64,000 bases of DNA, from contig NZ_LT629771.1 of the NCBI RefSeq assembly GCF_900105175.1, positions 6,406,622 to 6,470,621 on the forward strand, in the 5' to 3' direction. The position numbers were made by a program, and so were the translations under genes. Below are positions 15,424-19,960 of the stretch, in pieces. Source of the DNA: Jiangella sp. DSM 45060. GTDB taxonomy: Bacteria; Actinomycetota; Actinomycetes; Jiangellales; Jiangellaceae. Numbering within the stretch: position 1 is the stretch's first letter; every line of letters starts with the position of its first letter. The notes under the pieces were generated by a model that had not been told where the DNA came from, did no database searches, and saw only the letters and a program-made list of their open reading frames with translations.

Positions 15424-18282
15424 TCACTGGGCCATGTCGACGAAGCGGCTGTAGTGGCCCTGGAAGGCGACCGTGATGGTGGCGGTGGGGCCGTTACGGT
15501 GCTTGGCCACGATGAAGTCGGCCTCACCCGCGCGCGGCGACTCCTTCTCGTAGGCGTCCTCGCGATGCAGCAGGATGACCATGTCGGCGTCCTGCTCGAT
15601 CGAGCCGGATTCGCGCAGGTCGGACAGCATGGGCTTCTTGTCCTGGCGCTGCTCGGGGCCGCGGTTGAGCTGGCTCATCGCGATGACGGGGACCTCGAGC
15701 TCCTTGGCCAGCAGCTTGAGCGCCCGGGAGAACTCGGCGACCTCCTGCTGTCGGCTCTCGACCCGCTTGCCGCTGGTCATCAGCTGGAGGTAGTCGATGA
15801 TGACGAGGCGGAGGTCGTTGCGCTGCTTGAGCCGCCGGCACTTGGCGCGGATCTCCATCATCGTCATGTTCGGCGAGTCGTCGATGTAGAGAGGTGCGCT
15901 GGACACCTCGCCGGTGCTGCGGGCGATGCGGTTCCAGTCGTCGTCGGTCATCTGGCCGGAGCGCATGTGGTGCAGCGGGACCTTCGCCTCGGCGGAGAGC
16001 AGTCGCATGGTGATCTCGTTGCGGCCCATCTCCAGCGAGTACACGACCGACGTCAGCCCGTGCTTGATGGACGCCGCCCGGGCGAGGTCCAGTCCCAGGG
16101 TCGAGTTGTGCGTGGGGATGCAGGATCGACCGGCGAGGTAGAGGTGGTCGGCGGCATCGACCTCGACGCAGCGGACGGGAACGGAGGGAACGGGACGGAC
16201 GTCGACGACCATGCGTGCCGTAGGGCCGCTGCCGAGACGCTGCCGCCGCAGCTTGCGCCCGAGCCGGAACACGGGGTCGCGCGGCGTGAAGGTGATGCAG
16301 TACGACGTGGAGCTGGCTTCAGAGCGGCCGCGGACCCGCTTGGTGGTCATCCGCGCCCGGTAACCGAGCGAGTGGACGAGCTCGAGCGTGGTCTCGGCGA
16401 GACGGCGGTTGGTGACCGCGAACTGCACCACGCCGTTGGCGTTGACGTACCCGTCGGTGTCGAGCAGGCCGGCGAGGAGTGCCCGGCGCTGCTGGATCGA
16501 GGCTCGGAGGTAGTCGCGCGGGATGTGCTTGTCGCCGAGGACCCCCATGGTGCGCAGCACCGCCTGGACCGTGCCGTGGTGCCGATGGCAGGCATCGCAG
16601 CGCCGCAGCCCGGTCGACGGCCGGCCGCAGTCGGGGCAGGTCGGCGCCACGGCGACGCCGGCCAACCCGCGGACCCGTCCGCCGCAACGCCGCCCGCAGG
16701 TGCGGACCTGGCTGGTCTTGGGCACGAACGTGGCACCGCAGACGACACACGAGCGCTCGGCGACCGGCGCGGGATCGGGGTACCGCAACGAGTAGAGCCG
16801 GCCGTCCGCAGACTCGACCCGCAGGCCCTCGCGGCGGATCTCCTCAGCGATCTCCGGGTCGTCGGAGGTGAACCGGGCCGCCGCGCTGTGACCGTCGCCG
16901 AGCCAGACGCCGAGGGCGTACGGCGGCAATGGCAGGTCGCGGTCGGGCAGGTCGAACGCACCGGCCAGCCGCACCGCGTGGTTCAGCCGCCCGTCCCCGC
17001 CTTCGCAGCGCAGCGTGGCGGCCAGCTCCTCCGTCGTGACGATGCCCGAGTGTTCCGCGGCGGCCCAGCTGCCCACCGGACGGGAGACCCGGTGCGCGAG
17101 CTCGCCGAGTAGACGACGACGCGAGTACACCGGCACCCGCTGCTCGGCGGGCCGTGCCGACCCGCCGGTACGACGTGCAGCCAGGACGTCGACGCCGACC
17201 GCCTGGACCGCGCCGTGGACGGCGTGCCGGAACTCGGTGCCGACCTCGGCGACGGCCTCGGCCGCGGTGACGAGGCGGTCGGCTTCGGTCTCGGCCCGCC
17301 GCGCGATCGCACAGGCCCGGCCCACGGATGCGTCCGGCCAGTAGAAGCGGCGCGGGCGCCGTTCGCTCGCCGCACGCCGGGCGGCGCGGGTGGTGGTGGC
17401 CCACTGGTGCTGGGCATCGGCCACGATGACCGTGCCGTCGGAGAACTCGACCTCGTAGCAGGGACGATCGGCCATGACCTCGGTCGCGCCGACGACCTTG
17501 GTGGGCCGGCCGTCGGCGCCGATGAGAAGGTCGCCGACCCGGACCTCACCCATGGTGGTCCAGCCCGTCGGTGTCGGCAGCGGGGTGTCCAGTGCCAGCG
17601 CCTTGCCGACGGCGGGGCGCGCGGCCAGGATGATCAGCTGGCCGGGGTGCAGGCCGTTCGTCAGAGCGTCGAGGTCGGTGAAGCCGGTGGGGACGCCGAC
17701 CATCTGGCCGCCGCGCGAGCCGATGGCCTCGATCTCGTCGAGCGTGCCCTCCATGATCTCCGAGAGCGGGTGGTAGTCGTCGGACGCCCGCTTCTCGGTG
17801 ATGGCGTAGATCTCGGCCTGCGCGCGGTCGACGATGGCGTCGGCGTCGCCGTCGTCGCTGTAGCCCATCTGGGTGATGCGGGTGCCGGCCTCGACGAGGC
17901 GGCGGAGCATGGCCCGCTCGCGGACGATCTCGGCGTAGAAGCCGGCGTTGGCCGCCGACGGCACGGAGGAGACGAGGGTGTGCAGGTACGGCGCGCCGCC
18001 GACCCGGCCCAGCTCGCCCCGCTTCTGCAACTGCGCGGCGACGGTGACGGCGTCGGCGGGCTCGCCGCGGCCATAGAGGTCGATGATGGCCTCGTAGACC
18101 GCCTCGTGCGCCGGGCGGTAGAAGTCGTTGCCGCGGATGATCTCGACGACGTCGGCGATGGCGTCCTTCGACAGCAGCATGCCGCCCAGCACCGACTGTT
18201 CGGCGGCGACGTCCTGCGGTGGCGTGCGACCGTAGTCGGCCGGGGCCTCCTCCCGGCGATCCGGCAGCTCCGCGACGCTCAC
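15424..18282 (-). CDS. dnaB: Replicative DNA helicase DnaB interrupted in frame by an intein
   Basis: A 952-codon precursor: 227 residues of N-extein, a 499-residue intein, then 226 residues of C-extein. The spliced product is 453 residues, normal for DnaB. The N-extein has the N-terminal helicase-primase domain (PPQDVAAEQSVLGGMLLS) and the linker. The intein sits inside Walker A, between the Lys and Ser of ARPAVGK/STLGLDLARA. The C-extein contains VIIDYLQLM (Walker B) and SQLNRGPEQR. Without splicing the ATPase site is destroyed, so splicing is essential. GTG 18282 is chosen because GGAGG lies 7 bases upstream; a GTG two codons earlier and an ATG at 18348 are less likely. It stands alone on its strand, separated from rplI. 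Confidence 0.95.
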   Translation of the reverse strand: MSVAELPDRREEAPADYGRTPPQDVAAEQSVLGGMLLSKDAIADVVEIIRGNDFYRPAHEAVYEAIIDLYGRGEPADAVTVAAQLQKRGELGRVGGAPYLHTLVSSVPSAANAGFYAEIVRERAMLRRLVEAGTRITQMGYSDDGDADAIVDRAQAEIYAITEKRASDDYHPLSEIMEGTLDEIEAIGSRGGQMVGVPTGFTDLDALTNGLHPGQLIILAARPAVGKALALDTPLPTPTGWTTMGEVRVGDLLIGADGRPTKVVGATEVMADRPCYEVEFSDGTVIVADAQHQWATTTRAARRAASERRPRRFYWPDASVGRACAIARRAETEADRLVTAAEAVAEVGTEFRHAVHGAVQAVGVDVLAARRTGGSARPAEQRVPVYSRRRLLGELAHRVSRPVGSWAAAEHSGIVTTEELAATLRCEGGDGRLNHAVRLAGAFDLPDRDLPLPPYALGVWLGDGHSAAARFTSDDPEIAEEIRREGLRVESADGRLYSLRYPDPAPVAERSCVVCGATFVPKTSQVRTCGRRCGGRVRGLAGVAVAPTCPDCGRPSTGLRRCDACHRHHGTVQAVLRTMGVLGDKHIPRDYLRASIQQRRALLAGLLDTDGYVNANGVVQFAVTNRRLAETTLELVHSLGYRARMTTKRVRGRSEASSTSYCITFTPRDPVFRLGRKLRRQRLGSGPTARMVVDVRPVPSVPVRCVEVDAADHLYLAGRSCIPTHNSTLGLDLARAASIKHGLTSVVYSLEMGRNEITMRLLSAEAKVPLHHMRSGQMTDDDWNRIARSTGEVSSAPLYIDDSPNMTMMEIRAKCRRLKQRNDLRLVIIDYLQLMTSGKRVESRQQEVAEFSRALKLLAKELEVPVIAMSQLNRGPEQRQDKKPMLSDLRESGSIEQDADMVILLHREDAYEKESPRAGEADFIVAKHRNGPTATITVAFQGHYSRFVDMAQ
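16105..17601 (-). other. Class 3 DnaB intein with LAGLIDADG endonuclease and zinc-finger-like insert
   Basis: 499 residues. Residue 1 is Ala, not Cys or Ser, and the end is THN followed by extein Ser. The class 3 WCT triplet is present: W67 in the block B region (ADAQHQW), C478 in block F (VRCVEVDAADHLYL) and T497 before H498-N499. Such inteins start splicing with the block F Cys instead of residue 1. A homing endonuclease domain is recognised by ALGVWLGDGH (229-238) and LLAGLLDTDGY (376-385). Between them lie two CxxC pairs with partners, C285/C288/C302/C306 and C322/C325/C335/C338, which look like zinc ribbons. Both catalytic acidic residues appear present, so homing activity may be intact. 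Confidence 0.92.
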
Positions 18283-18378
18283 GCACACACCTCCGGCACC
18301 GGGTCGTCCATACACATGTTCTAACAGCCGCCGCTGTTTGGTGAACATATGGCCCGCGTCGGCGCGTCGCCAAGTCGA

Positions 18379-18553
18379 TGATCCACAGGAGCTGTGGACG
18401 AGCTGTGGAGGGGTGTGGAGACGCCGTGTAAACGATCATCCCCAACTGTGGACAAGCCTGGGGACAGCGCCCCGCCGAGTTGTTCACAGCTCGAACGTCT
18501 TACCAGTTCACGAGCGACATGCGTCGCCCTCGGGGTGTGGACGGAGATCCACA
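18379..18553. promoter_or_regulatory. Cluster of DnaA-box-like sites upstream of dnaB
   Basis: The 307-bp divergent gap between dnaB and the MATE gene holds a perfect actinobacterial DnaA box TGTGGACAA (18447-18455, complement TTGTCCACA). Related 9-mers occur at 18379-18387 (TGATCCACA), 18393-18401 (TGTGGACGA), 18480-18488 (TTGTTCACA), 18536-18544 (TGTGGACGG) and 18545-18553 (AGATCCACA). Weaker TGTGGA cores lie at 18404 and 18414. This is far denser than expected by chance. It may let DnaA control dnaB, titrate DnaA, or be an origin-like relic. No gene is seen in the gap. Confidence 0.6.
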
Positions 18554-18589
18554 GAGCAAGATCTCAGATAGCGAGACGACGGTCACGCG

Positions 18590-19960
18590 ATGACAGGTGT
18601 CACCCCTACCGTCGGTCCTGCCATGATTCGACATCCGTTCCGACGGCACGCGGCCGACGGCGAGATCGTGCGGCTCGCGCTGCCCGCGCTGGGCGCGCTC
18701 GTCGCCGAGCCGCTGTTCCTGCTGACCGACTCCGCCATCATCGGCCACCTCGGCACCCCCGAGCTGGCCGGCCTCGGCATCGCGTCAACGGTGCTGGCGA
18801 CGCTGGTGAACGTGTCGATCTTCCTCGCGTACGGGACGACGGCCGCGGTGGCGCGGCGGCTGGGCGCCGGTGACCAGGCCGGGGCGCTGCGCTCGGGCAT
18901 CGACGGCTGCTGGCTGGCCGTCCTGATCGGCGTCGCGACGGTGGCCGCCGGCTGGCCGCTGACGCCGTGGGTGGTGTCGCTGTTCGGGCCGGGCGACGAC
19001 GTGGCCGGGCACGCGGAGACGTACCTGCGCATCAGCCTGCTCGGCATCCCGTCGATGCTGCTGGTCCTCGCCGCGACCGGCGTCCTGCGCGGCCTGCAGG
19101 ACACGCGGACGCCGCTCTACGTCGCGGTGACGGGCGCGGTCGCGAACGTCGTGCTCAACGTCGTGCTGGTGTACGGGCTCGACCTCGGCATCGGCGGCTC
19201 CGCGCTGGGCACCGTCCTCGCCCAGACCGGCATGGCCGCCGTGTTCATCCGGGTCGTCGCGCGCGGCGCCCGGCAGGCCGGGGTCGGGCTGCGCCCGGAC
19301 GGGCGCGGCGTCGCGCAGGCGTTCGGCGCGGGCATCCCGCTGATCGTCCGGACGGTCGCGATGCGGGCCGCGCTCATCGTCATCACGGTGGTGGCGGCCG
19401 GGCTGGGGACGGCGGAGCTGGCGGCGCACCAGGTGGCGTTCACGACGTGGACGCTGCTGGCGCTCATCCTCGACGCGGTCGCGATCGCCGCCCAGGCGCT
19501 GGTCGGCCGCGCGCTCGGCGCCGGCGACGTGGACGGCGCACGGTCGATCACCCGGCGCATGGTGCAGTGGGGCGTGCTGTCGGGGTTCGCGCTCGCCGTG
19601 CTGCTGCTGGTCGTCGGCAACGGCTACGCGCGGCTGTTCACGTCCGACCCCGAGGTGCGGACGCTGCTGTTCGCCGCGCTGGTGGTGGCCGCGGCGATGC
19701 AGCCGATCGCAGGGTGGGTGTTCGTGCTCGACGGCGTGCTGATCGGCGCCGGGGACGGGCGCTACCTGGCCTGGGCGTCGGTGCTCTCGGTGGTGGCGTT
19801 CCTGCCGGCGGCCTGGGCCGTCGCCGTCGCGGACGTGTCCGGGCAGGCCGGCCTCATGTGGCTCTGGGCCGCGATCGGCGTGTGGATGCTGGTCCGGCTG
19901 GTCACGCTGGCCCTGCGGGAACGCAGCGACACGTGGATGGTCACCGGGGCAGTGCGCTAG
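18590..19960 (+). CDS. MATE-family efflux transporter (DinF-like)
   Basis: A 456-residue protein with twelve predicted membrane helices and the family's LALPALGALVAEPLFLLTDSAIIGHLGTPELAGLG opening (residues 26-60). This is the DinF branch of MATE exporters, which use H+ or Na+ gradients to expel cationic drugs or oxidised compounds. ATG 18590 and ATG 18623 are both possible starts; neither has a good ribosome site, so the mRNA may be leaderless. It diverges from dnaB and converges on the TrmB-type gene, sharing a CTAG tetramer that provides the TAG stop for both strands. Confidence 0.9.
   Translation: MTGVTPTVGPAMIRHPFRRHAADGEIVRLALPALGALVAEPLFLLTDSAIIGHLGTPELAGLGIASTVLATLVNVSIFLAYGTTAAVARRLGAGDQAGALRSGIDGCWLAVLIGVATVAAGWPLTPWVVSLFGPGDDVAGHAETYLRISLLGIPSMLLVLAATGVLRGLQDTRTPLYVAVTGAVANVVLNVVLVYGLDLGIGGSALGTVLAQTGMAAVFIRVVARGARQAGVGLRPDGRGVAQAFGAGIPLIVRTVAMRAALIVITVVAAGLGTAELAAHQVAFTTWTLLALILDAVAIAAQALVGRALGAGDVDGARSITRRMVQWGVLSGFALAVLLLVVGNGYARLFTSDPEVRTLLFAALVVAAAMQPIAGWVFVLDGVLIGAGDGRYLAWASVLSVVAFLPAAWAVAVADVSGQAGLMWLWAAIGVWMLVRLVTLALRERSDTWMVTGAVR

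Follow-up and report, generated by a model that had tools for sequence, protein, structure and literature searches.

Binding of DnaA upstream of dnaB, the gene for the replicative helicase, is already known in mycobacteria. In Mycobacterium tuberculosis, five regions were enriched in a DnaA pull-down at 150 nM, among them Rv0057, which lies upstream of dnaB, and homologues of the five regions were found by ChIP-seq in M. smegmatis (PMC7738170). The M. tuberculosis DnaA variant I282T binds the dnaB promoter more weakly and uniquely under-expresses dnaB (PMC7738170). In the portion of that report available to us, the mycobacterial dnaB site is described as a peak, without a ladder, an orientation or a promoter register (PMC7738170). 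Likewise, dnaB of Caulobacter crescentus belongs to the DnaA regulon and has predicted DnaA boxes, which links DnaA to dnaB transcription there as well; the accessible part of the review gives no array architecture (PMC8203912). In Streptomyces coelicolor, dnaB is a member of the modelled regulon of the principal sigma factor HrdB (PMC6344877). A DnaA-box cluster outside oriC of the same species (J Bacteriol 2006) is reported to repress untimely initiation and has been read as datA-like, and datA-analogous clusters have been reported in Streptomyces and Bacillus (PMC5742627). Within the literature searched, where subscription papers were mostly outside our reach and silence is not proof of absence, we found no earlier description of a class-wide or phased dnaB array, nor of the directional, promoter-registered architecture described below.

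We analysed a window of 64,000 nucleotides (positions 6406622-6470621 of the single-contig 7.49-Mb genome of Jiangella sp. DSM 45060), in which a 307-bp gap (18283-18589) lies upstream of dnaB. An earlier note, made from the sequence of this stretch, had claimed one perfect DnaA box and at least five related 9-mers within about 175 bp. This count was borne out, as eight DnaA-box 9-mers with a T[CT]CACA core, one perfect and seven related, lie within 175 bp (18379-18553; Table 1). When the gap was shuffled 5,000 times with its dinucleotides kept, the shuffled sequences held a mean of 0.39 cores and a maximum of 4, compared with 8 in the real gap. In the 344 kb around oriC (the window plus 280 kb), the densest 200-bp stretch is the dnaB gap with its 8 cores, the runner-up being a stretch upstream of dnaA with 4, and four control stretches of 20 kb each from elsewhere in the genome reach at most 2 cores per 200 bp. 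The density of the boxes thus stands up to comparison with random and control DNA. While this all-orientation density scan covered the 344 kb and the four control stretches, the genome-wide cluster scan covered direct TGTGGA triplets. Three direct TGTGGA motifs with gaps of at most 30 bp occur at three distinct places in the genome, including the dnaB gap, and the reversed pattern occurs at none; another such three-box stretch (at 5067904) lies near what appears by eye to be a gene for a SprT/DUF45-like protein. The perfect 9-mer TTGTCCACA has 40 exact copies genome-wide versus 16 for the reversed pattern. However, when one mismatch is allowed there is no enrichment (340 matches, in a list that has 32 of the exact copies, versus 484 for the reversed pattern), and it is therefore the clustering, rather than any single box, that stands out.

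Table 1. Features of the dnaB upstream gap and its borders (positions in the window)
Feature	Position	Strand	Basis or remark
dnaB, replicative helicase	15424..18282	-	952 aa; Pfam DnaB N and C domains, LAGLIDADG_3, Hom_end
dnaB GTG start	18282-18280	-	sequence and genus alignment
GGAGG ahead of dnaB start	18290-18294	-	sequence
Predicted dnaB -10, TATGTT here (TAGGTT in 11 aligned genus relatives)	18344..18349	-	genus alignment; -10 calls in other families
Predicted dnaB -35, TTGGCG, 18-bp spacer	18368..18373	-	genus alignment
DnaA box TGATCCACA	18379..18387	+	convergent with next box; starts 14 nt apart
DnaA box TCGTCCACA	18393..18401	-	starts 52 bp upstream of predicted -10 (counted on the sequence)
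DnaA box CCCTCCACA	18404..18412	-	within segment of variable length across the genus
DnaA box GTCTCCACA	18414..18422	-	core scan
GTTGGGGATGATCGTTTAC, almost unchanged across 12 Jiangella loci	18428..18446	-	genus alignment
Perfect DnaA box TTGTCCACA	18447..18455	-	one of 40 exact genome copies
DnaA box TTGTTCACA, weaker core	18480..18488	+	core scan
Distal DnaA box CCGTCCACA	18536..18544	-	core scan, genus alignment
DnaA box AGATCCACA, abuts distal box CCGTCCACA	18545..18553	+	core scan
MATE-family transporter gene, divergent, other border of the gap	18590..19960	+	Pfam MatE

The mycobacterial site belongs to the same class and the same gene and has DnaA bound just upstream, as we predict for Jiangella (PMC7738170); the divergent MATE neighbour of the Jiangella gene is a difference from that site. 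The Jiangella dnaB itself has an intein-like insert that carries LAGLIDADG/homing-endonuclease domains. Within the genus, the segment with CCCTCCACA exceeds that of 9 of the 11 aligned relatives by 10 bp; the remaining two (L044 and L045), in which it is 20 bp longer, have a box spacing of 53, versus 33 in the rest. The convergent 14-nt pair of boxes recurs in Jiangella, in Streptomyces and at loci of two further families (f22 and f37).

With respect to the class, the N-terminus of DnaB is present in 387 of 393 genomes. We sampled 133 regions upstream of dnaB in 39 families, the Jiangella genome included; the sample was made up of 30 best-match loci, 53 loci chosen for family spread and 50 of 51 further genomes; one genome (G019) was excluded because its dnaB match starts at a contig end. 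At least one core within 200 bp was found at 131 of the 133 loci (63 in the reversed control), at least two at 124 (control, 7) and at least three at 111 (control, 1), and core boxes were absent from two of the 133 upstream regions (L171 and L175). A second, partly overlapping set of genomes gave at least three cores at 56 of 79 loci (79 of 80 having enough flank). Since a MATE homologue was detected upstream of dnaB at only 65 of the 133 loci, the cluster goes with dnaB. An element of the MATE gene was rejected as an account of the cluster, which persists at the 68 loci where no MATE homologue was detected, although a diverged MATE gene may escape detection. As judged from these upstream sequences, the cluster is conserved with dnaB through the class as sampled. 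The earlier note had also remarked that genes near oriC normally do not show such a density; this fails for the class, in which the dnaB upstream region is itself a conserved location of DnaA boxes. A feature reaching as deep as the phylum was rejected: outside the class, 3 of 20 loci, taken from the closest outside-class matches, have at least two cores in 200 bp, and the cluster therefore looks largely class-specific. Three records, labelled Vibrio cholerae 35D, Sporosarcina beigongshangi and Bifidobacterium breve (a MAG), contain an actinomycete-type dnaB with 69-74% identity to the query, which probably reflects contamination or mislabelling.

The boxes have a preferred direction and a preferred spacing. 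With orientation relative to dnaB taken from the recorded strands, the region from -500 to -120 holds 400 dnaB-sense boxes versus 120 antisense boxes. Using one locus per family, we observed that the distances between boxes of the same direction favour 11-12, 33, 44-45, 55-56, 65-66, 76, 110 and 122 bp. They fit a period of 11.0 bp best, with a coherence R of 0.75 (117 distances from 39 families, which share ancestry, so that the distances are not independent), compared with a maximum of 0.34 in 2,000 random placements; when family representatives were drawn at random, the 11-bp coherence was 0.60-0.80. The distances vary among families, yet they still tend to whole turns. The Gordonia sputi locus has box spacings of 43, 11 and 12, and three loci of a family that we take to be that of Mycobacterium (f4) have spacings of 65/44, 65/11 and 33/11, one locus of this family being 80% identical to Gordonia. 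Weaker sites follow the same register, as non-core box-like 9-mers scoring at least 5 make up 7.4% at phase 0 versus 0.5-0.7% at phases 4-7. From this class-wide enrichment, the nearly invariant GTTGGGGATGATCGTTTAC segment of Jiangella may contain weak in-register box-like sites.

A ladder scan with steps of 10-12 bp ranked the dnaB gap first in the 344 kb of Jiangella (7.8, followed by dnaA-dnaN with 6.8 and dnaA upstream with 5.6) and second to oriC in 300 kb of Streptomyces (7.3 versus 8.9), and off-register steps peaked at 5.6 and 5.1. Short ladders are thus not unique to dnaB, the dnaA-dnaN gap being second in Jiangella and first in Streptomyces. The boxes of the dnaA-dnaN gap in seven families, a small set, have an R of 0.157 at 11 bp (best, 0.306 at 10.4; 36 distances), whereas the dnaB boxes of the same seven families have an R of 0.75 at 11 bp (20 distances), which argues that the register is not shared by DnaA clusters in general, even though the ladder scan scores the dnaA-dnaN gap high. 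At 26 dnaA loci, many of them from Streptomyces, R is 0.008 at 11 bp. The low-affinity DnaA arrays of E. coli oriC are directional and have a pitch of about 11 bp (a 9-mer plus 2 bp). Those arrays are at the origin, whereas the Jiangella array is at a predicted promoter, and the dnaA-dnaN boxes of the seven actinomycete families lack the 11-bp pitch.

Another motif, GCAGGTCAG, was found with at most one mismatch at 59 of the 133 dnaB loci, in 24 families (reverse complement, 16 loci; reversed, 5; complement, 10). At 25 of the 31 loci that have a core box within 120 bp upstream of it, the motif lies 28-30 bp from the start of the box. It is no rarity in itself, with 8 exact occurrences on one strand of the Jiangella 344 kb and 4 of its reversed form. 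In 24 families (L095, L077 and L092 are examples), the distal part of the region is a conserved module of a box, a GGTGGA-like half box and GCAGGTCAG, the last of these some 28 bp beyond the start of the box. At the Jiangella box CCGTCCACA, the motif that lies about 28 bp downstream of such a distal box in other families has diverged.

In the genus alignment, TTGGCG-N18-TAGGTT (TATGTT in the present genome) is conserved between the last box and the GTG start. We treat this as the dnaB promoter by consensus prediction, with a predicted start near 18337, the form of the -10 element having been chosen after reading the sequences by eye. For the class, promoters were called in a fixed region independently of the boxes and the first passing locus of each family was used; at a score threshold of 7.0, 29 of the 39 families gave a promoter and 10 gave none. 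The distances from dnaB-sense boxes to the predicted -10 follow an 11-bp register with R = 0.745 (57 distances from the 29 families). None of 5,000 permutations of promoters among families, and none of 5,000 jitters, gave a register as high; the permutations also gave none in 5,000 at thresholds of 6.5 and 8.0, and P was 0.0004 at 7.5. At the 29 loci, 78 of 89 dnaB-sense boxes start 30-220 bp upstream of the predicted -10, and only one, at +25, falls near the predicted core promoter (-29 to +60 of the -10). For antisense boxes, 11 of 22 are in the same upstream range and 2, at -18 and +48, are close to the promoter. Going by these predicted promoters, the boxes sit consistently relative to the dnaB promoter.

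We consider it likely that the gap is a DnaA-responsive control region of dnaB, that is, a DnaA-activated dnaB promoter. DnaA would occupy the strong boxes as anchors, and the weaker sites in between would probably be filled by DnaA to give a directional array, in which successive units are separated by one 11-bp turn and so share a face of the DNA. Where the array comes closest to the promoter, its end would keep a constant helical position immediately ahead of the dnaB -35 element and would contact RNA polymerase. Such a contact would raise dnaB transcription, and the supply of helicase would then track the amount or the state of DnaA, perhaps including its nucleotide state. Of the roles that the earlier note had suggested, control of dnaB by DnaA fits best, because the cluster follows dnaB, keeps a register with the predicted promoter and has a DnaA-bound mycobacterial counterpart; titration could be a by-product, and a bipartite origin is not supported.

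An array in this position could also act in the opposite sense and hold the promoter down when DnaA is abundant. It adjoins the promoter, and the register could equally serve a repressing array. In E. coli, DnaA autoregulation takes the form of repression. Several bacteria have a dnaA promoter that is bound and regulated by DnaA, as the accessible part of a review describes (PMC8203912). However, dnaB-sense boxes avoid the -10 element and the predicted start in all but 1 of 89 cases, and reduced DnaA binding in M. tuberculosis accompanies reduced, not increased, expression of dnaB (PMC7738170). This makes repression of dnaB by DnaA quite improbable. The mycobacterial and Caulobacter data and the HrdB regulon, together with boxes that lie mostly off the core promoter, favour activation. 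Caulobacter belongs to a different phylum from Jiangella.

Given that the dnaB gap has dense boxes, one of them perfect, near the origin, we also considered a site that merely lies beside dnaB and that soaks up or inactivates DnaA after the origin region has been replicated, like datA of E. coli or the cluster of S. coelicolor. In all 26 genomes in which a single contig carries both genes, dnaA and dnaB are about 21-226 kb apart, as calculated by coordinate subtraction (for 7 of the 26 the interval crosses the start of the contig, which was treated as circular), which places a strong cluster fairly near the origin. Several clusters lie around oriC in the Streptomyces 300-kb scan, dnaB among them. 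The S. coelicolor 2006 study reportedly found three clusters around oriC, namely H69, H24 and D78; the dnaB cluster of this species is possibly H24. Five box cores in 65 bp occur in one Streptomyces genome (G320, 4359408) in a gap that by eye is pheA-like/serS-like, about 80 kb from dnaA, and this cluster is possibly the published D78. In Jiangella, the better of two serS-type matches (L316) has one core in 3.3 kb, and no counterpart of the pheA-serS cluster was found there. The S. coelicolor clusters are likewise outside oriC, and a Streptomyces cluster is reported to repress untimely initiation, an effect on initiation that differs from the promoter function proposed here (PMC5742627). A sink for DnaA, however, needs no main orientation, no 11-bp register with a promoter and no attachment to dnaB when the neighbouring gene changes, and the pheA-like/serS-like cluster of the G320 genome is denser than the dnaB cluster. 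Titration alone leaves the register between boxes and predicted promoter unexplained, and as the main function of the cluster we regard it as unlikely; it may be a side effect of control of dnaB by DnaA. Elsewhere near the Jiangella origin, a group of three boxes (6552191-6552416) lies between genes that by eye are ppiA/rhomboid-like and DUF881-like, and a Streptomyces cluster at 4459027 lies in the same setting, which we take to be that of Rv0010c-Rv0011c of M. tuberculosis. The Jiangella group is apparently syntenic with this DnaA-bound mycobacterial site.

Part of a bipartite origin, or a second origin, was the remaining role suggested for the cluster. The ladder score of the dnaB gap matches the level of dnaA-dnaN in the same genome (7.8 vs 6.8), and its GC content is below that of the window (0.61 vs 0.73). 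With respect to an unwinding element, overall GC was compared, at 0.612 for the dnaB gap and 0.634 for the dnaA-dnaN gap. As the note had proposed, we located dnaA, and about 95 kb separate its domain match at 6520628 from the start of dnaB at 18282 of the window, compared with distances of up to about 2 kb for known bipartite origins in the available text of one source (PMC4285127). The cumulative GC skew of the 344 kb reaches its minimum at 6532903; dnaA-dnaN lies about 11 kb and dnaB about 108 kb from this point, and the boxes of dnaA-dnaN lack the 11-bp register. With its cluster 95 kb rather than within about 2 kb of a first cluster beside dnaA, and with no turning point of the skew at dnaB, we rejected the bipartite origin, which we hold to be extremely improbable.

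The TTGTCCACA 9-mer alone is no proof of DnaA, because an exact 29-bp direct repeat, TTGTCCACA-N20-TTGTCCACA, carries it at seven places in Jiangella (865040, 1841578, 2886629, 3780147, 5980990, 6595811 and 6978685, six of which are loci L024, L318-L321 and L323 of our set). This repeat raises the question of whether the boxes upstream of dnaB serve a different protein whose target resembles a DnaA box. The repeat is present in 10 of 12 Jiangella genomes and in none of 14 others, and the reversed control gave 0; among these 26 genomes it is therefore confined to Jiangella, whereas the dnaB ladder is class-wide. Downstream of two copies lie, by eye, an SSB-like gene and a gene for a CpaE/septum-site-like ATPase, and the repeat set looks like a separate regulon. 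The mycobacterial counterpart of the dnaB site is bound by DnaA itself (PMC7738170), and another protein at the dnaB boxes is very improbable.

Building on activation of dnaB by DnaA, we tentatively put forward a more specific possibility, to which we give less credence than to activation itself. An orisome-like DnaA filament could run the dnaB promoter of nearly all Actinomycetes: it would nucleate at the distal module, in which a box, an inverted half box and GCAGGTCAG lie at a near-fixed 28 bp, extend one way along the 11-bp ladder of weak sites, and trigger dnaB once its tip arrives at the RNA polymerase face. If so, growth of the filament would need active DnaA, and the promoter would serve as a read-out of readiness for initiation that supplies the helicase just in time. 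Activation of dnaB by DnaA would in itself tie expression of the helicase gene to the initiator across the class, including Streptomyces and mycobacteria, and would give a concrete geometry, in 11-bp steps with a fixed promoter register, for DnaA acting as a transcription factor. At least one of the DnaA-box clusters near actinobacterial origins is probably a promoter element, which bears on deletions that have been interpreted as titration effects.
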